Source: Sphagnum magellanicum (lineage: Eukaryota; Streptophyta; Sphagnopsida; Sphagnales; Sphagnaceae). From it: DNA of 64,000 bases. Under the pieces are notes generated by a model. The model had not been told where the DNA came from. It saw only the letters and a program-made list of their open reading frames with translations, and did not search any database. Shown here one piece after another: positions 12,688 through 22,913 of the stretch. Location of the stretch: positions 12,177,061 through 12,241,060 of the forward strand of contig CM038912.1 of NCBI GenBank assembly GCA_021904315.1, read 5' to 3'. Both the position numbers and the translations under genes were made by a program. The stretch's first letter is position 1. Each line of letters opens with the position of its first letter.

Positions 12688-13536
12688 ATGGTGCTCAATG
12701 CCGCACTGCTGCTGTGTCCTTTCACTGTAGCGTCGGACATTTTCATGTTGAAGAAGGACACTGCCAAGATGCACTGTAGCAACGCCGGGCTCAACATCCC
12801 AAATAATGCACCCCTAGTGGTCTACTAGGTAGCCCTAGCCGGGCATTGGCTAGTCATGGGCCTCAAGACTGATAGTTCATTTATTAACACGCGACTATCC
12901 AAGATGGAGGTAACCATTGAAAACATTGCATCTCTCACGACCATTAGCAACCTTGCGGTTAACCAATTGATAGAGCACGAAGTGATTGCGATTGTCACAA
13001 CCAAGGCTACGTCTACAGAGGAGCCCAAGTGGACCACAGTGATGGCTAAAAACGTGCGTTAGGTGGTTAGTTGAGCTGTGGAGACCTTGGCTGATGCACC
13101 CAAACAAGAGGAGCACAAACTCAACCTGCGCCTCACAGGCTTTGAGGTTAAAGAGGGCGAGACCGAAAATGAGCTCGTGCATCGGCTCAACATAGAGCTG
13201 TTGTAGGGCCAAATGAGGCTAGGTGTCAAGGTCGTTGCTGCCACGCAGTAGTGGCATGCAACTTTGCGGGCTTCCACCTTGACGGCAAGCGCACACCCCG
13301 GCGTGGTGCTATTCAAGTTTGCAATGAGCAAGGATCGCCAGGCTACGCTACGAGGGCGCAAAGGCCTAGCAAGGACCAAGTTGGGCCTAGATGAAGACCT
13401 CACGCCCACACAATAGGCGCGCAAGTCACAACTGTGGCCATTGTTCAAGGAGGCCAAGACAGTAGGCAAACACGCATTTTGGTGTGCAACTAAGCTTTTC
13501 GTCGACGACACTTAGATTTGCCCGTCCTCTTCTATC
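12688..13536 (+). pseudogene. LINE ORF1 (RNA-binding protein), nonsense-decayed
   Basis: One frame stays in register for about 283 codons from ATG 12688 to TAA 13534. It has a coiled-coil-like N-terminal part ('SKMEVTIENIAS') and a core with 'KLNLRLTGFEVKEGETENEL' followed by 'SKDRQATLRGRKGLARTKLG', the pattern of LINE-1-type ORF1 RRM domains (LRLTGF ... F...DR..LRGR). Seven in-frame stops interrupt it: TAG at 12826, 13060, 13204, 13249, 13414 and 13513, and TGA at 13072. There is no frameshift. Every stop is one C-to-T step from CAG or CGA. In life the protein binds LINE RNA and acts as a chaperone. Confidence 0.8.
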
Positions 13537-13728
13537 TAAGGGCGTAGGGACCAAAGAGACCTATGCGTGGTATTACGGAACATGCACGGGGGTGGAAATA
13601 CTAGAGTTGTTTCAGGGTGCTGACCTCATCTTATTAACTTAAACTTGGCACTTCTCAGGCCAACATTTGCCACATGTTGAAGGGTTTGACTTATTTGCGG
13701 TAGCATGCACTATGCAGTTGGGAAATAC
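13537..13728 (+). pseudogene. LINE ORF2, start of endonuclease domain (before hAT insertion)
   Basis: Just before the hAT, the frame CAA CAT TTG CCA CAT reads 'HLPHVEGFDLFAVACTMQLG'. This is an APE-endonuclease segment of the type that follows the 'TET' motif in LINE ORF2. It ends in GGA AAT AC, which is the target duplication, and the reading continues on the far side of the hAT with 'KVTKHR' in the same codon phase. The upstream part (13560-13640) is scrambled between frames. Confidence 0.75.
13721..13728. repeat. hAT target-site duplication, left copy
   Basis: GGAAATAC, identical to 19527-19534. Eight bases is the duplication length typical of hAT transposons. Confidence 0.92.
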
Positions 13729-13744
13729 CATAGTTATGACATTC
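13729..13744. repeat. hAT terminal inverted repeat, left
   Basis: CATAGTTATGACATTC, adjacent to the 8-bp duplication. The inverted similarity continues less strictly into the next 100 bp through ACATTCGG and AACATTCGTG. Confidence 0.88.
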
Positions 13745-13860
13745 TTAGTGCGGGAATGTTATGGAAGCCCAAAGAAGCAAGAATTTTAAAGAATTTTATA
13801 GATCAACCGGTGAACATTCGGTAAACATTCGTGGGCATGTTAGGCTTACATTATTAGGCT

Positions 13861-14073
13861 TATATCCTGGATGGACAAATTAGCCTGTCCTAACTTTACC
13901 ATCAAGCAGATTCAGCAGGACAGTAGATACCAATGAAGTCACTCTCTAGCAAATGCTAAACAAATCTTCCTCAAGCTTTTATATTGTTGATCAACTTTAA
14001 AACATTATCAGACTTCTATCCTAGATGGACAAATTAGCATGTCTTCGATTTACCACCAAGCATATTCAGCATC
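13861..14073. repeat. Direct repeat in the transposase 3' flank
   Basis: About 58 bp starting TATCCTGGATGGACAAATTA at 13861 recurs at 14017 with CTAGATGGACAAATTAGCAT. Both continue through TTTACCA(T/C)CAAGCA and TTCAGCA. The period is 156 bp. Position near the element end suggests a role as subterminal transposase sites or an old internal duplication. Confidence 0.7.
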
Positions 14074-14289
14074 ATACCACCCAAAAAGATTCAAAAAACA
14101 AATGCATGTAGTCAAGCCTTACATCAGAACTAGTTGAGCTGCATACCAGATCTGATTGGATTGCACAAACTAGAAAAAGTTTTGACCTGACTGCAAAATC
14201 TAATAGCTTTTAAACTTTCTTGAGCTCCAGCACACCAGATTCACAAAAAAATGGACACAATCCAATATTTTGCCAAGCTCACCCGTGCT

Positions 14290-16203
14290 TCACTCTTCCT
14301 CCAATTCCTCCTCTCCGCTGTCCCATGCCACCATCTGCTCCTCATACTCGATGTTGTTCACCTTGCTAATCAGACGCAGGTTAGTGAACACTTCCACCAG
14401 ATCGTTTGCCCTGTCTGGTCGTAGACGATTGCGCTTTTTGTTGTGGATAAAGTCGTAGGTGCTCCAGTTTCTCTCGCACGCAGATGCACATGAGATCTGG
14501 CTTAGCACCTTTTGTGCCACGCTCTGCAGCTCGGGGCACTCTGAACCAAATTCCACCCACCACTTCCAGCCTGGCAACTTCTTAGCAATTGCCTTGATGA
14601 ACGGGCGGCCAAACTCTCCCTCCGAGTTCCTGTACTTAGCTAGCTGTTCAATTGCCTTGACCTGATCCTCAACGTCAGGCAGAAGCTTTTCAACAATGTT
14701 GTGAAACCCTCGCATCACTTCTACATTGCTATGCTGCCCATTACCTAGAGACTGATACTCCGGGTCAAGAACATACCCAGCGGCATGCATGTCGCTGTGC
14801 AACATCTCCCAGCGCTTCTCCCATATTGCATGCACCTGTGCATACTTCTGAGTAGAGACCTTGATCCTAGGACAGTACTCCGAGGTGCCGTCCCTTAGGG
14901 CCTCCAGTTCCTGTCCGCAATTGAACATTGCCACATAGACCTTTCCTGCGATTGGCACCCCCCGATCACACTCCTGCAGCAGAGCCACCGTCCCCTTTGT
15001 CAATGCTAGCACATTTTCCAGGTTCTTCCAGAATCCGCTCCGCAAGACACAGTCCCTCACTCCATCCTCGTCATCTGAATGATTGGACTTCCTGTTCCAC
15101 TCCCTCCACTCCCGGCCGACAACCAGCTCTTGCAACGCCTCTCTCACCTGTAGCATGCGGTCCAGCATGATGAAGTTGGTGGCAAAACGCGTGTCCCCTG
15201 GCTTCAGCAGATCCAGCGCAGACTTCCCACGAAATAACGCCTGACTCCGGTGGTGATTTGTGATGAATTTCACCACTGCCTTTGCCTCTGCAACCACCTC
15301 TGCAGCCCATGGCAGCTTCCCTACATCTTCAAGGAGCAGGTCCAGACAATGTGGGGTGCACGGCGTCCATGTTATCCAAGATAACTTTTGCTTAACCAGC
15401 CTGCCAGCAGCTTTGCAAACTGCCGCACTGTCTGTAACAACTTGGATGACACTGTCTGCACCAACCTCCCGGATGCAATCAATCAACTGTCCAGCAATAT
15501 AAGCAACGTCCTTTGTCTCACCCCCTGTATCAACCGCCTTGAGGAACATTTCCCCCTTCGGAGAGACAACGAGCATATTTAACAAAGGGCGCCTACGCAC
15601 ATCAGACCACCCGTCACTGGTAATCGTTGCCCCTGTCAGCTGAAGATACTCTTGGAAGGAGGCCAAGCCATCCCGACAAACCTGTTTTTCACGCTCCAGA
15701 ATGGTTGTTCGCAGCCTGTCCACAGAAGGAGGCCCTGGATATGACTCCCCAAAACTTGCTGTTGCTGCCACAGCTGCCTTGAAGTGAGGATCCTTTGCTA
15801 AATTGAAAGAGAGCCCATTGGCATAGAATGTTCGACCCCAAAGCTGGTCAACCTTCAAGCAATCCTGCTTGGAGAAGGCAGCCTTCAAGGTGCTTTGCTT
15901 CTTAGGATTGACAGCCTCCCCACTGGACAGCTTGTCAAGCTGCTCAACCTTCCGCTTCTTGAACTCCTTTTCCTTCTTTTCCTTCTCCAGCTCTTCAAAT
16001 TGGTGTGTAACCACCGGGGGGACTTTGTCACAAGCTCGCACACCAGATCCAATCCAGCCTAGAAGATGTGCACGAATCCTGGTTGCTGTGGCGGTAAAGA
16101 CAAGTTCACAGTACTTGCATTTGACCTTAGTGCTTTCCCCAGGGGTCTTGGGTTCCTCCTGCTGGATAATGTGGGCATGCTCTAGTCCCTTTTCCTTGAC
16201 CAT
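14290..16203 (-). CDS. hAT transposase, intact, 637 aa
   Basis: This enzyme would cut and paste the surrounding element. The chosen start is the ATG whose codon occupies 16201-16203, in a strong context (GCCGCCATGG); the frame is open 11 more codons upstream but without an ATG. From that start, a BED-type zinc finger has Cys29, Cys32, His46 and Cys58. A basic/Glu-rich linker follows (about 70-95), then the DUF659/RNase-H-like core from about 150. This contains 'ITSDGWSD' (first catalytic Asp region), 'VVTDSAAVCKAAG' (second Asp) and 'CTPHCLDLLLEDV'. The C-terminal hAT dimerisation region contains 'RNWSTYDFIHNKKRNRL'. The length is normal for plant hATs of this BED-DUF659 type. There is no frame break and no visible intron. 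A domesticated host gene is less likely, because the termini and target duplication are fresh. Confidence 0.93.
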   Translation of the reverse strand: MVKEKGLEHAHIIQQEEPKTPGESTKVKCKYCELVFTATATRIRAHLLGWIGSGVRACDKVPPVVTHQFEELEKEKKEKEFKKRKVEQLDKLSSGEAVNPKKQSTLKAAFSKQDCLKVDQLWGRTFYANGLSFNLAKDPHFKAAVAATASFGESYPGPPSVDRLRTTILEREKQVCRDGLASFQEYLQLTGATITSDGWSDVRRRPLLNMLVVSPKGEMFLKAVDTGGETKDVAYIAGQLIDCIREVGADSVIQVVTDSAAVCKAAGRLVKQKLSWITWTPCTPHCLDLLLEDVGKLPWAAEVVAEAKAVVKFITNHHRSQALFRGKSALDLLKPGDTRFATNFIMLDRMLQVREALQELVVGREWREWNRKSNHSDDEDGVRDCVLRSGFWKNLENVLALTKGTVALLQECDRGVPIAGKVYVAMFNCGQELEALRDGTSEYCPRIKVSTQKYAQVHAIWEKRWEMLHSDMHAAGYVLDPEYQSLGNGQHSNVEVMRGFHNIVEKLLPDVEDQVKAIEQLAKYRNSEGEFGRPFIKAIAKKLPGWKWWVEFGSECPELQSVAQKVLSQISCASACERNWSTYDFIHNKKRNRLRPDRANDLVEVFTNLRLISKVNNIEYEEQMVAWDSGEEELEEE

Positions 16204-17314
16204 GGCGGCTGTCAAAGTTACACAACTTTGGAGCAAGCAAAACCAATGAAGAGTGTTGGAGCGACGTACTCATCAGAAAAGAATTGAGAAGAGCCAAGGT
16301 TTTCTTTTCTTTTGTCAGAGAGATCACCCTCCAACCAGCACACAAATTATCTCCCCATCCTCCAGTCTAATGCTGCCATGTTCATGAAAAAATTGTTAGC
16401 TTCAGAAACAGGTCTTGTCCTCCTCTCACATGAGACATATGCAAACCTACCAACATGATGCACAAGACTTAGAGATCTTGAACACCTGAAACACCTGAGC
16501 AACAAAAGTGATGACAGTATAACAACAAACTCACATATGAAACTCAAGTGCCATGGCTTCTACTCACCCTCCTCAGAAACCACTGCACTTAGGATCCAAA
16601 TTGCAAAGTCCCCATGGAGCTTTTGGGGCTTCATCAACTCTTTCAATTCATTTCTTGCAACATTCCATGCCTGTGCCTGAACAAGCGCACACACACACAC
16701 ACCCATTTCCACTGCCCTCAGACAACAGCCAATCCCCAATAGTCTTCCTCGTATTAGTTCATATACAAGGATGTTTGTTTTTGATTTGACAAGAACAAAA
16801 AACATTTGCATTTTCGCTGACAAAGTCTGCTACAAAAAAGCAAAAAAAACAACAACAACAACAAGAAGTAGAGTGGCATAAGTACATGTGTACCCTGTGC
16901 TTGATTGCCTTTCTGGTCCTGGCCTGGATACTGCAACAATATAGGTACAAAAATTAGGGATCTCTTGCTCTCTGCATAATCACACACACATTGGGGCAAG
17001 AAGAAAAATCTGGAAAGCATTTCATGGCTCAGTGAAGAAGTACTACTACTGCTAGTTCTAATCCTTCCTCCCAAGAAGCTGCTCTTCTTGATGATAGATT
17101 CGTGGAGAAATAAGAATCTGTCTGCAAACGGCAGATAGATCTTGACAGAAGAGCCAGCAAGGAAGAAAACACAAACAAACTTTCAGTTGCATCATCTGCA
17201 TTTTACCTTGTGCAATTTCTCTATGACATAGATCTCTCTAGTCTGGTTTTGGCCATTATCCACAATCCATCTGCAGTTTTTCACACAGAGAGATTTGAGA
17301 AGAGATTTGTGTAA
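16204..17314. promoter_or_regulatory. Divergent intergenic region of the hAT
   Basis: It lies head-to-head between the transposase (-) and the unknown frame (+). It should hold the transposase promoter and 5' leader, and possibly a promoter for the + strand. It contains a short (CA)n at about 16689-16701 and an AAC-rich patch near 16846-16866. No TATA box can be assigned with confidence. Short ORFs on both strands here are not supported. Confidence 0.4.
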
Positions 17315-18280
17315 GTGAAGGTCAAGTTTGCCTTCACGTATAAAGGATACAAAGCAGCAGTGGCAAACAAAAGAGACAAGTCCACCAAGCAGCAATTGGC
17401 AGAGGGAATCAGGGTGGCAGTAGCAGAGGAGTCTGATGCAGCAGCAGCATCAGTCTCTTCAGATGGATCAATCTCTCCATTGTCAGAAGATCAATGCAAT
17501 GATGGTTTCTCTGGTTCCATCTCCCCATTGTCAGAAGATCCATGCCATGGCGACTTCTCTGGTTCAATCTCTTCATTGTCAGAAGAAGAAGATTCATGCA
17601 ATGATGGCTTCTTTGGTGATAAGGAAGCTGACATTACAACACAAAGTAAATTCAAGCTTGCCTCTGGGGAGTTGACCTACTTCAGACCAGAGTTGTTGAG
17701 TGTTGTCATTCAGTCCAATACACTTGAGCAATCGGTATCCACAAGAGCAAGCACCTGTAGCAAGTGTGCACAATTCTCTGACAGTGTACGAGATCCAAAT
17801 GGGTTAATTGATTTAGCAGGAGCAGCTCAATGTTCTGACAACAATTACACAAATCCACATGTGGCTGCAAGACCTGAAGGAATTGCAGATGCATATGATC
17901 ATCATCATCCCTCTACATCTGGTGATGAGAAGGAGGCTCTTGTGAAATTTGACGCGCAGAAGAGGGTTCTGCATGAGCTGCTGCCCTCTTCTTCTCTTCA
18001 TCATGGGATTGTTTGTGATGCACCTGAGGAGGAGGAGGAGGAGGATAGGGGAAATGGTAGTTCTAAGGATATGGAAGAGCGTCGTAAGAGTTTAGTTACA
18101 GTAAGTGCTGCAAGAGCATCAAATACTCTAAAAATGAAATGGGGAGACTTGGATGATGAAGATGTGGAACAGATAGTTTCTTGTGATCAGTATTCAAGAC
18201 CCAGATTCATATCCACATCACTAATATACTCTGTACGACAAATAACTTGCACAAGAATAGAGAAATCTCTATATTCATGA
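17315..18280 (+). CDS. Unknown Ser/Glu-rich open frame inside the hAT
   Basis: Open for 321 codons after a TAA at 17312 on the + strand, opposite to the transposase. There is no early ATG (it opens with GTG; the first ATG-encoded methionine is near residue 250), so it is more likely an exon than a complete CDS. Residues about 50-105 contain three imperfect copies of 'GSISPLSEDxCNDGF'. Later come 'STCSKCAQFSDSV', an acidic 'EEEEEED' run, and 'LKMKWGDLDDEDVEQI'. The frame seems under protein-like constraint, because the repeat copies differ mainly by substitutions and in-frame indels. I recognise no family. It could be a second transposon protein or a captured host exon. A possible donor (ACA|GTAAGT) occurs near 18101. 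Confidence 0.45.
   Translation: MKVKFAFTYKGYKAAVANKRDKSTKQQLAEGIRVAVAEESDAAAASVSSDGSISPLSEDQCNDGFSGSISPLSEDPCHGDFSGSISSLSEEEDSCNDGFFGDKEADITTQSKFKLASGELTYFRPELLSVVIQSNTLEQSVSTRASTCSKCAQFSDSVRDPNGLIDLAGAAQCSDNNYTNPHVAARPEGIADAYDHHHPSTSGDEKEALVKFDAQKRVLHELLPSSSLHHGIVCDAPEEEEEEDRGNGSSKDMEERRKSLVTVSAARASNTLKMKWGDLDDEDVEQIVSCDQYSRPRFISTSLIYSVRQITCTRIEKSLYS
17466..17618 (+). repeat. In-frame minisatellite, three 57-66 bp units
   Basis: GGATCAATCTCTCCATTGTC at 17466 recurs with changes near 17514 and 17562. Each copy encodes the GSISPLSE-type unit. Because unit lengths are multiples of three, the reading frame is kept. Confidence 0.75.
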
Positions 18281-18671
18281 TTAAGAAAACCAGAACAAGG
18301 TTAAATTTTTTCCTTCAAGTCAATGAAAGACTTCTAGATAAGGACTTCAGAGTTTGGAACAAAGAAAAACACAGAAGGGTAGAATTTAAAACAAAGAACA
18401 ATAAGACCAGCAGTATGAACACAAAAGCAATAGTCTTACTTCTTGTTCAGGACCATCAACATTACTGTGTATGATAGTGACTTATCTATCAGAACTTAGC
18501 CACTGACTTTGTCAGCTCCAACAGTGGGTATAGGCCAGATTCATCTCCATGTCTCCAGTGGTTTATGTACATCTCAAGCAGGTAACACAAGCATGATGCT
18601 GGAGTATGCATCAGAGTCAGAATACACACCAAAATCCTCATCTGCTTGCTGTAGCCTGCTGTTTGCATTAG

Positions 18672-19055
18672 TGTTGTTTTCTGCACCCGGAGAAGAACCG
18701 TCGACGACCATTTCATGAACTCGTCGGACTCCTTCCCGGCTTCAATGGCGCAACGGATTGCTCTGATTCTTCTTCCCCTGATGACGAGTCCTCCTCCTCC
18801 TCCTCCTCACAAGGCGCCACTAGAGAGGGCTCTGGAGACCGGGAGAAGAACTTCTTCACTCCATTTTCCGCGAGATGCACAACACAGTTTCTTGGATGCG
18901 AGGATCTTCTTTCGCAAGTCTCTTCCACATTCAAGCCGCCGATGAACTCCAAGCACCAGCTGCAAAAGAATCTCATGCATTTGTTGCCTCGACCGATGCT
19001 AAGCTACAGGATTGTCGAAAATAATTTGCGATCTGTAAGGTACGTCGTTACATGA
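18672..19055 (+). CDS. Second unknown open frame inside the hAT, probable exon
   Basis: Open for about 127 codons between TAG 18669 and TGA 19053 on the + strand. It encodes a Ser-rich acidic segment ('SSPDDESSSSSSSQGA') followed by an ordinary-looking stretch ('KNFFTPFSARCTTQFLGCED', 'STFKPPMNSKHQLQKNLMHL'). Its local composition is G/C-richer than the sequence before it. A possible upstream exon is near 18500-18580, ending ATCTCAAGCAG|GTAACA. With 17315-18280 it would make a multi-exon + strand gene. The opposite strand is also open at 18713-18976 (87 codons), so strand assignment is uncertain. No family is recognised. Confidence 0.3.
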   Translation, partial: CCFLHPEKNRRRPFHELVGLLPGFNGATDCSDSSSPDDESSSSSSSQGATREGSGDREKNFFTPFSARCTTQFLGCEDLLSQVSSTFKPPMNSKHQLQKNLMHLLPRPMLSYRIVENNLRSVRYVVT

Positions 19056-19366
19056 GGAGGTCGCCAGTAGATAATCTTTCCGCTGTCGGAGAGCAGCAGC
19101 CATGAGCACTGGAGGAGGACGGACGGACGGCCCGGGAGCCCTATAAGAACTACAACACCTCCTCAGACTCCTCCTTCTCAGGAAGAGTTTATTTGTAAAC
19201 AAAACAAAAAAACTGCAGTTTAGGTGAAGCAAAAGAAAGAAAGAAAAGAAAGTTCCAACTTGAGAGAGAGAATAGTAACTACCCCCAGTAGGACAACTAC
19301 AACAAGCTACACCGCACTGCACTGGCGGCGCGGTCGGCAGGTATTGGCGGCAGCCGGACTCCTAGT

Positions 19367-19393
19367 GGTAACGGTCTGGCAATAACCGTTACC
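19367..19393. repeat. 9-bp inverted repeat near the right hAT end
   Basis: GGTAACGGT (19367-19375) and its exact complement ACCGTTACC (19385-19393) lie about 135-160 bp from the right terminus. They could bind a dimeric protein. No counterpart was seen at the left end. Confidence 0.65.
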
Positions 19394-19510
19394 GTTTAAC
19401 ACAGGCTGTCGCCGTGCGCGATGTCCAGCAAATGTTTCACGAATGTATGCCGAATGTTTTGACAAGGTGCTTTGCCACGTAAATTCGCGAATTTTAAAAT
19501 GCAAAATGAC

Positions 19511-19526
19511 GAATGTCATTACTAGG
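19511..19526. repeat. hAT terminal inverted repeat, right
   Basis: GAATGTCATTACTAGG, the reverse complement of CCTAGTAATGACATTC; 14 of 16 bases match the left terminus. Confidence 0.88.
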
Positions 19527-19534
19527 GGAAATAC
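19527..19534. repeat. hAT target-site duplication, right copy
   Basis: GGAAATAC, identical to 13721-13728. Confidence 0.92.
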
Positions 19535-22500
19535 AAAAGTGACAAAACATAGGGGGGGGGGTTGTTGCTTACTTTTGTAGCCACCTTAGGCCAAACCTGT
19601 CACAGTGGAAGGAAGGAAACCACGATTCTTATCTATGGTTACGAGTGAGCAGGGGTGCTGCCCTTGACTTGTTTGTCTGCGTGGTGTACATTGCCCCTAT
19701 TGGCTCCAAACACGAGAATGAATCCATGTTCCAAAACCTGGTAGCAGATATTGCTGGAATTCAAACTCTGGGGGGCATAGTACTTTTGGGAGGGGATTTT
19801 AATGCACATATTGCAGCATTATCAGATACCCTTGACACTAGCGACCTTTGTGAACTGTTACAAGCGCTTGAGCTCGTTGAAACTAAACAACCAAGCGTTG
19901 TGGTTATGCGACAAAACCATGATGCTAATGTTAGTGGCTGGGGCCACAAGCTCTTGGACCTATGCTGTGACATTGGGTTGCTCATCCTCAATGGTCGGAC
20001 ACCTAGCGACCAATCAGGGGAATTCATTTGTTTGGTAAATGGGGGGCGTAACACTATCGATTATATTGTTAGCTCACCTGCAGTTTGGCAAGCTACTACA
20101 CACCTCGAGGTGATAATAGATGGCATCTGCTACCGCGCGATGGAGGGCAATTCTAACCACAGGCCGTTGCGCCTAGGATTGAACATCAATTACAGCTTTG
20201 TTGAACCACAACATACGGTGGTAACAAAAAAATTCTTCTTGCCTAGGTTCAACTATGATAAATCAAAAGTTGAAGAGTACCAGCTTGCCTTAATAGTGAG
20301 TCTTGGAAACTTGTGGGTTGTTGACTTGATTGGGTATCTGGGGGCAGACGAATTAGTTGACCTACTATAACAATGCGTGGGTGCTGCAGCAAAGTTTACT
20401 TTTGGCAACAAGCCTTCGGGAAGGAGCTGTAGAAAGAGACATTGCCATAAACCCTGGTTTGATGTTGACTGCCGTACAACAAAACGTGAACTGAGGCTCT
20501 GGATGAAAGCCAACCTTGATTCACACGCCGTTAAACATTAGAAAAGTAAATTCAAAAATTTATTAAAAATGAAAAGACTTTTTTGGGAAACTGCAAGAGC
20601 TTAACATATGTGTGCGCTTGCTAAAGTGGATGCACATTTGTTCTGGAAAAAGTACTGGCCAAGGGCGCCCATTATGGACAAGATCAGTGTAGCTACGCTT
20701 TTGGAGGGCTTTTGTGCGCTAGTTGGCCAGTCTCCGCCACCCATATAGTTACGGACTAATCATTCAGCTCAGGTGACCAAATCTCCACCTAGCCACACCT
20801 TGAATGCAGATATCACACTTGTTGAGTTGCTTCAGGCGTTGAAAAAGTTACAAAGGAACAAGGCTACCGGTTTGGATGGTATGAAAGCTGAGTTCATTTT
20901 GGATGCAAGAGAATTGCTACACATGCCACTATTGATAGCGTTCAATTGCTTTCTGGCAGAGGACTTTCCAGAAGCCCTTTCCACTGGGGTGGTCCACGCG
21001 TTCTTTAAAGGGGGCGATGCTTTTAAATTTGACAACTACATGGGGATAATGGTTGGGCCTATCCTACCAAAGTTGTTTGTTATGATCCTTGACAAAAGGC
21101 TGAGTGAATGGGCTGAATAACATGGGCTAAGTGCCAAGGGTCAAGCTGGGTTTCGTAAAGATTACCGCACTATTGACCAACTCTTCATATTGCAAATTTT
21201 GATAGAACAGAGCAAGGCAAAAAAAAAGCCACTCTATTGCTGCTTTGTGGACTTAAAAAAGGTGTTCGATACTATGCCACGTGAAGTGTTGTGGCAGGTG
21301 TTGGTTGGCCTTGGGGTGAAGGGATGCTTCTTGCGATGCCTACAGGCGATGTATGCCAAGGATACCATACGCATCAACCACCCAAGCGAGGGTGTCACCT
21401 ACAACTTCAGGTGCTAACAAGGTGTGAAACAAGGTTGTCCTCTCAACCCTCTATTGTTTGGGCTATATTTGGATGCCCTAAAGGGGCGTTTAGACGGCAG
21501 AGAATGTGATGCACCGACCTTAGCAGATGTGCACGTATGGTTGTTGCTTTTTGCAGATGAACTTGTTCTAACATCGGAGTCAGAGGTGGGACTACAACAA
21601 TAGTTAGACGCACTTTAGCAATTATGTGCTGAACGTGGACTTACAGTGAACATGAAAAAAACAAAAGTCATGGTGTTCAATTCTGTTGACCCATGCCAAA
21701 AGTTTGTGTTTGAAGGTGACATTATTGAGCATGTGCAGACTTTCAATTACTTGGGGATCTTACTTGAGACCACCCCGAACCTGGATAGTGCAGTGGAACA
21801 TCTAGCAGTTGCCAGTAGGCACTTGCTATTCACACTGAACCACTGTTGTGTAGAACTAATATTATGGATGTTAAGTTATGTTATGACCTCTTCAACACGT
21901 TGGTGCGTTCCACAACAAGTTACGCCTGTGAGATTTGGGTAGACTCCAAGAAAATAAAGGCTATTGAAATAATGTACCGAAGGTTCCTCAAGTTCCTACT
22001 CGGGGTGCGAAAAATAACTAGCATGTCCATCGTGCTAGCAGAATTTGGCAAATTCCCCTTTGAACACTTTGCATGGGGACAAACATTGATGTACTATAAT
22101 CATGTGAGCACGGTCACTAAAGACCGCATCTTAGGAAAGGCATGGGAAGCCCAGCTCGTTATGCTTGTTACGGGAAAGAAATGTTGGGTTGGATCCATGA
22201 AAAAATGGCTACTCCAAAATCAGCCCCATGAGGTGGCAGGTTTTCTGCCTCCGGCTCAATCACCGTTGGAAATGACACTTCAGCTTACAGTGACCCGTGT
22301 GCTCCAAGCAGGGACTACTGAACTACTGTTGGGAACAGTTCCTGGGTCAACGCACATACATCTAACTTGTCTAGCAAGATTAGTGCAGCTAGTTGGTGGT
22401 AGATCTACGACGAGAGGCCCGATCAACCAGGAGGTTGGGGCCCCACCCCCTCCAGGTTTTCCCCACATAGTGTTGAATGTAAAAAGGGTGAAAGATAATA

Positions 22501-22913
22501 TGCGATTGGCTTTCATTAAAAAGTTATTTACCAACCGCGAGATTGGGACCAACGTGCAAACAAGATACTTGCACTTCAAGGGTATGTCGTACGAAAACAA
22601 AAGATATTTGTGTGACATCAATTGTGTCCAGCTACGGAAAGCTCTGGCCTGGTTTCAATGTGACAACACGCAACTTGAGGCAATGCTAGGTGCGTGGAAG
22701 GGTGTGCCATACATAAAGAGGCTTTGTCAAGGCTGCGATTTGGGGAAGGTAGAGGATGAAGAGCACTTGCTCCTTATTTCTCCAAATACATAGAAAGTTA
22801 GGGAACGCTTTTGTTCGACCCTACCCCTCACTCGCATGAGCACTCTTGCTGAACTCATGCAGACTACGAACACGGTCGCCCTGGCCAAATTTGTGGCATG
22901 CTGCCAACACTAG
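19535..22913 (+). pseudogene. LINE ORF2: endonuclease and reverse transcriptase, decayed
   Basis: The protein nicks target DNA and reverse-transcribes LINE RNA. The APE endonuclease runs to about 20225, with 'LLGGDFNAHI', 'GRNTIDYIVSS' and 'NSNHRPLRL' (the SDH motif reads SNH). Reverse transcriptase spans about 20770-21650: 'NKATGLDGMKAEF', 'GQAGFRKDYRT', 'CCFVDLKKVFDT', 'QGVKQGCPLNPLLFGLYLD' and 'LLFADELVLTS', where the usual FADD reads FADE. A C-terminal zinc motif ('CQGCDLGKVEDEEH') precedes the final stop at 22911. In-frame stops are at 20368, 20539, 20602, 20746, 21118, 21415, 21601, 21616 and 22791, all TAA or TAG. There is one shift in the G run at 19551-19561 and another near 21850. 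The copy is inactive. Confidence 0.88.

Follow-up and report, generated by a model that had tools for sequence, protein, structure and literature searches.

The stretch of Sphagnum magellanicum DNA analyzed here (64,000 nucleotides, C6:12177061-12241060; hereafter the window) contains a complete hAT element with the following features.

13721..13728, no strand: left target-site duplication (TSD) GGAAATAC, identical to 19527-19534
13729..19526, no strand: complete hAT element with inverted ends and an 8-bp TSD; a sister copy (L009) is 98.2% identical across the same span
14290..16203, minus strand: open hAT transposase frame of the window copy, beginning at the ATG at 16203 and encoding 637 aa
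16215..17315, no strand: first piece of DNA shared with locus L021 (BLAST 16233-16491 and 16496-17316; first bases placed by eye), without a match in the compact sister elements
17316..18174, plus strand: part 1 of the SCAPER exon-1 fragment, covering roughly host codons 1-292, with GTG at the start codon; bulk of the first open frame
18175..18539, minus strand: fragment of the host purH region (source L020, C2:15.948 Mb), antisense to the plus-strand frame, whose tail (18175-18280) it supplies
18540..18542, no strand: internal-deletion junction, with about 2.07 kb removed that is still present in the long copies L010 and L011
18543..18647, plus strand: stub of SCAPER part 2, of which 105 bases remain
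18648..19309, no strand: second piece of L021-shared DNA (BLAST 18656-19307), holding the open frame 18672-19055
19310..19526, no strand: native right end of the hAT, common to the compact sister elements
19527..19534, no strand: right TSD GGAAATAC, 8 bp

The element was assigned to the hAT superfamily from its 8-bp TSD, a transposase with a dimerization domain and short terminal inverted repeats. The repeats (CATAGTTATGACATTC / CCTAGTAATGACATTC) are imperfect, with 17-nt arms that are 88% complementary, and the transposase matched the Pfam profiles DUF659 (PF04937, 1.4e-42) and hAT C-terminal dimerization (PF05699, 9.7e-10), together with a BED finger at 14.8 bits, under the cut-off of 20.6. 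The hAT was apparently inserted in a decayed LINE (13000-13728 and 19535-22793): reverse-transcriptase-like frames were identified in its flanks by reading only, one 43-codon frame runs across the joined flanks, and a LINE-like Exo_endo_phos match lies to the right of the element (2.6e-4; 21.3 bits, short of the 24.5 cut-off).

The preliminary description had drawn attention to two plus-strand frames inside the transposon boundaries, and both are indeed open (17315-18280, 321 codons; 18672-19055, 127 codons) and lie between the hAT termini flanked by GGAAATAC. The frame-preserving Ser/Glu repeat (three copies in the first frame, spaced 48 and 48 nt), the CxxC (reading CSKC), the acidic runs and the KMKWGDLDDEDVEQI segment reported for them were all found. 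Neither frame had a match in Pfam, a PDB sequence search with the first frame returned a single match (E 0.64), and a literature text search for MKWGDLDDED found no match; the identity of the first frame came only from a search of the moss's own genome (438,994,042 bases in 31 contigs).

That search identified a host gene at another locus, SCAPER (L012, C8:23.16 Mb), in which the corresponding exon is one uninterrupted 683-codon frame carrying MKVKFAFFTYKGYK at codon 9. DNA identity between element and host exon was 92-93% in part 1 and 93-94% in part 2, and the match to an intact host frame (92-93% over about 880 nt) means that the first frame did not arise by chance. SCAPER exon 1 itself has no significant Pfam domain; the gene was recognized from the exon that follows the 683-codon frame, which matched SCAPER_N (PF16501, 2.2e-14; L012:962-1357, minus strand). 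A SCAPER paralog (L040, C5:24.47 Mb) has a first exon 46% identical over the matched part and, by reading only, the same exon order. The paralog carries the word KFKWGDLDDEDLEQM and the host gene the word KMKWGDLDYEDVEQM, so the KMKWGDLDDEDVEQI segment, which the preliminary description had singled out for a search among host proteins, belongs to the SCAPER gene. Used as a protein query against the whole genome, the host frame returned 17 matches, namely the host gene, the C5 paralog and 15 matches in 11 element loci.

The first frame is therefore a composite, with SCAPER DNA at 17316-18174 and antisense DNA of the purH locus, read through, at 18175-18280. The SCAPER frame properly resumes in the window at the 18543-18647 stub, and the frame at 18672-19055 consists of DNA from the third locus, L021, rather than of a second exon of the SCAPER piece. 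The suggestion that the two frames were exons of one spliced gene was accordingly rejected, as their sources proved to be different loci (SCAPER/purH and L021). A conserved protein in the stretch of the second frame was not supported by the 12 copies compared, among which L021 has an insertion of 76 nt relative to the window, not a multiple of three, and L014 has a 1-nt loss inside; small losses at the start of the stretch in L011, L018 and L021 lie at the margin of the sequence extracted. A putative minus-strand coding frame spanning 18713-19003 was compared in the same 12 copies, and the 76-nt insertion of L021 falls there.

The nesting of the foreign pieces is best seen in the longer sister copies. 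A DNA search with 17315-19055 yielded at least 53 matches (40 scored of 644 candidates, so that counts are lower bounds), and 13 stretches around matches were retrieved and compared. L009 (C15) is a full copy like that in the window, and two longer copies (L010, C14; L011, C17) retain about 2.07 kb between positions corresponding to 18539 and 18543 that are missing in the window copy and L009. In L011 the SCAPER exon is broken by 1,838 bases with a 91.8% match to L020. This locus was recognized as the purH gene from a neighboring exon (AICARFT_IMPCHas, 2.6e-61), whereas for the captured purH exon the sole match was to the MGS model, weak and below the cut-off. The purH-derived DNA lies mostly outside any recognizable exon and looks intronic, which suggests uptake from DNA. 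Both long copies have an in-frame stop at the purH junction, directly ahead of SCAPER part 2.

Internal deletion has produced shorter forms of the element without a transposase match, four of about 1.96 kb (L013, L014, L017, L019) and two of 2.78 kb (L015, L018). Exact 8-bp TSDs flank the window copy, L009, L011, L013, L015, L018 and L019; the TSD of L014 has one mismatch and L017 has none. In total, SCAPER DNA was present at 11 element loci outside the host gene, with part 1 in four, part 2 in nine and both in two (the C14 and C17 copies), while a short remnant of part 2 survives in the window and C15:908k copies. Within the fetched stretches, both element ends were found at nine of the 11 loci, the left end not being found for L010 and L016, and no element ends were detected around the SCAPER (L012) and purH (L020) source loci. 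These data indicate that the captured block lies inside the termini and was multiplied with the element at 11 loci, most copies having 8-bp duplications. L010 (C14:4.90 Mb) is split within its transposase, the C-terminal part following after about 7 kb and the left end after about 14 kb, and by reading a gag-like frame lies between the parts. A left-end search (40 of 286 candidates scored) additionally gave at least 25 places that match, at 93-96% identity, no more than the outermost ~102-107 bases of the left end (13729-13835). As 21 of these places have equal scores, they are perhaps a separate, homogeneous short family using these hAT ends.

Two compact sister elements (L043, C19; L044, C5) represent the form before capture. 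They span about 2.86 kb, have exact 8-bp TSDs, and are identical to the window element at about 92% of DNA positions over 13727-16214 and at 85-88% over 19310-19524. BLAST of both fetched stretches found no SCAPER, purH or L021 DNA; in place of the whole captured block they have a different leader of about 160 bases between the transposase and the right end. As two close sisters lack the captured DNA, it was gained by the window lineage. Only 11 bases separate the block from the transposase ATG, and these 11 bases are common to the compact sisters. The transposases of L043 and L044 show no length change and have six and eight in-frame stops, respectively, of which 12 of 14 are TAG and two TGA, a pattern that fits C-to-T decay. 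Additional transposase relatives at 84-89% identity lie on C13, C3 and C8 among the matches listed, and in a distant relative fetched to polarize the capture (L045) the ends were not found.

The third source, L021 (C14:17.28 Mb), matches the window pieces on either side of the SCAPER DNA, with their order preserved, and adjoins a frame with a heme-dependent oxidative N-demethylase domain (PF11927, 4e-22). Judging from the compact sisters, its DNA would have moved from host to element. The reverse direction, in which L021 is itself an element remnant and its match no capture, would account for the collinearity on both sides of the SCAPER piece and for the fact that the shared L021 stretch has no assigned gene; we regard it as improbable, given that neither the element ends nor the transposase were matched in L021 or its fetched neighbors, that L021 has about 1.1 kb and 0.46 kb missing from the elements, and that the compact sisters have a different leader at that place.

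Collectively, the plus-strand frames are almost certainly transduplicated host DNA in a transposase-encoding hAT. Sequence comparison shows that 17316-18174 was copied from the first exon of SCAPER, followed by antisense purH DNA, with DNA of the third locus on both sides. The preliminary description had left the choice between an accessory transposon protein and a host fragment captured by the hAT, and the clear match to SCAPER at another locus supports the latter. Uptake may have occurred at the DNA level during gap repair in the element, by template switching at short homologies. Because of the nesting, the order of events would be entry of L021 DNA into a compact hAT, then of SCAPER into the L021 DNA, then of purH into SCAPER, and later internal deletions. 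Within the element, the SCAPER piece would be passenger DNA without protein function, decaying mostly by C-to-T change.

To assess selection, the four copies with part 1 were compared pairwise. For SCAPER part 1 and the transposase, respectively, raw dN/dS was 0.37 and 0.33 (window-L009), 0.72 and 0.38 (window-L010), 1.18 and 0.26 (window-L011), 0.55 and 0.34 (L009-L010), 0.89 and 0.32 (L009-L011) and 0.87 and 0.36 (L010-L011), with synonymous divergence in the same six pairs of 1.6-4.4% for SCAPER part 1 and 3.8-12.8% for the transposase. These raw ratios mislead and overstate the contrast between the transposase and SCAPER because decay at methylatable C drives both: C-to-T plus G-to-A account for 36 of the 46 part-1 changes and 79 of the 101 part-2 changes, CG/CHG sites diverge several times faster than others, and the transposase has more of them per base. 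Counts were therefore corrected for substitution spectrum and context. After this correction, 12 of 45 changes in part 1 were synonymous against 10.7 expected (P 0.38), and 19 of 96 in part 2 against 21.5 (P 0.76). A further calculation gave 12 of 46 against 12.4 for part 1 (P 0.61) and 21 of 101 against 22.7 for part 2 (P 0.70). An excess of synonymous over nonsynonymous change in sister copies, proposed earlier as a sign of an element gene, was thus not seen, the SCAPER substitutions fitting the neutral expectation. The power of this test is limited, because even in the control transposase the selection signal left after correction is modest (70 of 161 changes synonymous against 57.9 expected in the four copies, P 0.027). 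Taken by themselves, the window and L009 transposases gave 16 of 35 against 12.0 (P 0.10), and those of the compact pair 69 of 154 against 57.4 (P 0.028).

Two features of the SCAPER piece run against its reading as passenger DNA. Part 1 is free of stops in all four copies, where 2.3-2.4 were expected (P 0.08-0.09), and every length difference from the host is a multiple of three, in four of four copies of part 1 and nine of nine of part 2; most of these differences are common to all copies and so represent few events. The host ATG has become GTG in all four copies of part 1, and the first in-frame ATG lies at residue 253 in three of them, including the window copy (L011 has one at residue 8). 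Part 2 has seven stops spread over five of nine copies, so that the broken frames in sister copies named earlier as evidence against an element gene were found in part 2 but not in part 1. On balance, the sequence data speak for drift of the SCAPER piece, with a weak contrary hint in part 1.

The same hint, that is, the slight shortage of stops in part 1, would favor a captured fragment with a putative gained function, a chimeric transcript or small RNAs (from SCAPER and purH) that act on host genes or on the element. The length of the pieces (859 and ~700 nt), their 92-94% identity to the host exon and their presence at 11 loci are consistent with such a role, but substitutions that fit neutrality are not, and we give it little credence. 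An accessory element gene, that is, a further transposon-encoded protein that transposition requires or profits from, comparable to mudrB of MuDR, can draw on the 321 open codons of the window, the unbroken part 1, the length changes in threes and an orientation divergent from the transposase, yet it is extremely improbable in view of its absence from both compact sisters with exact TSDs, the lost start codon, the neutral substitution pattern, the retention of part 1 at only four of the 11 SCAPER-bearing loci, the stops in and ahead of part 2 and the intact host gene elsewhere. Returning to transduplication, a further and tentative possibility, which we consider unlikely though not negligible, concerns its consequences: the captured DNA would have replaced the 5′ region of the transposase, and as only 11 bases upstream of the ATG are common to the compact sisters, whose leader is otherwise different, transcription of the transposase in this lineage may depend on a promoter of host origin. 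The 11 SCAPER-bearing copies, also with antisense purH DNA, may in addition be a source of small RNAs directed at two host genes.

These findings imply that an open, protein-like frame next to a transposase need not be an element gene, and annotators should be warned that 11 loci of this genome can pass for partial SCAPER genes. The preliminary description had ranked the frames as the best candidate in the window for something undescribed; they instead reflect the known process of transduplication, with no new transposon protein, ordinary in kind and well resolved in detail. What the case offers is an unusually readable series of nested captures, in which a hAT that encodes its transposase took up DNA of three loci step by step and a single genome retains the pre-capture form, the long form and several deletion forms. 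The titles and abstract openings retrieved on Pack-hAT elements, on hAT transduplication with transposase and on gene capture by Sphagnum hATs do not describe this element.

In MuDR, mudrB is a second gene of the element lineage, beside the transposase gene. The window element resembles it in having a second frame next to the transposase gene within one element; unlike mudrB, that frame was copied from a host exon and has no match in the compact sister elements, and neither conservation in sister elements nor purifying selection was found for it. What was found instead are the marks of gene capture, namely host sources in SCAPER (L012) and purH (L020) and a capture-free lineage (L043, L044). 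The Hatvine-6 hAT family of grapevine, as presented in the part of its report considered here (PMC2528002), has a common transposase and common ends, while the remainder often matches host exon, intron or non-genic DNA and varies between copies. Our element is similar in these respects, and it differs, relative to that part of the report, in being a nested mosaic with three located sources, the compact and long sisters revealing the sequence in which it was assembled, and in belonging to another plant lineage. Pack-hAT elements have been reported in maize (PMC8903248, in the portion considered), and the six deletion forms resemble this type in joining hAT ends to host fragments without a transposase match. 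The window copy, unlike Pack-TYPE elements, encodes an open 637-aa transposase, and under the scheme given in that portion of PMC8903248 it is therefore autonomous or autonomous-derived rather than Pack-TYPE.
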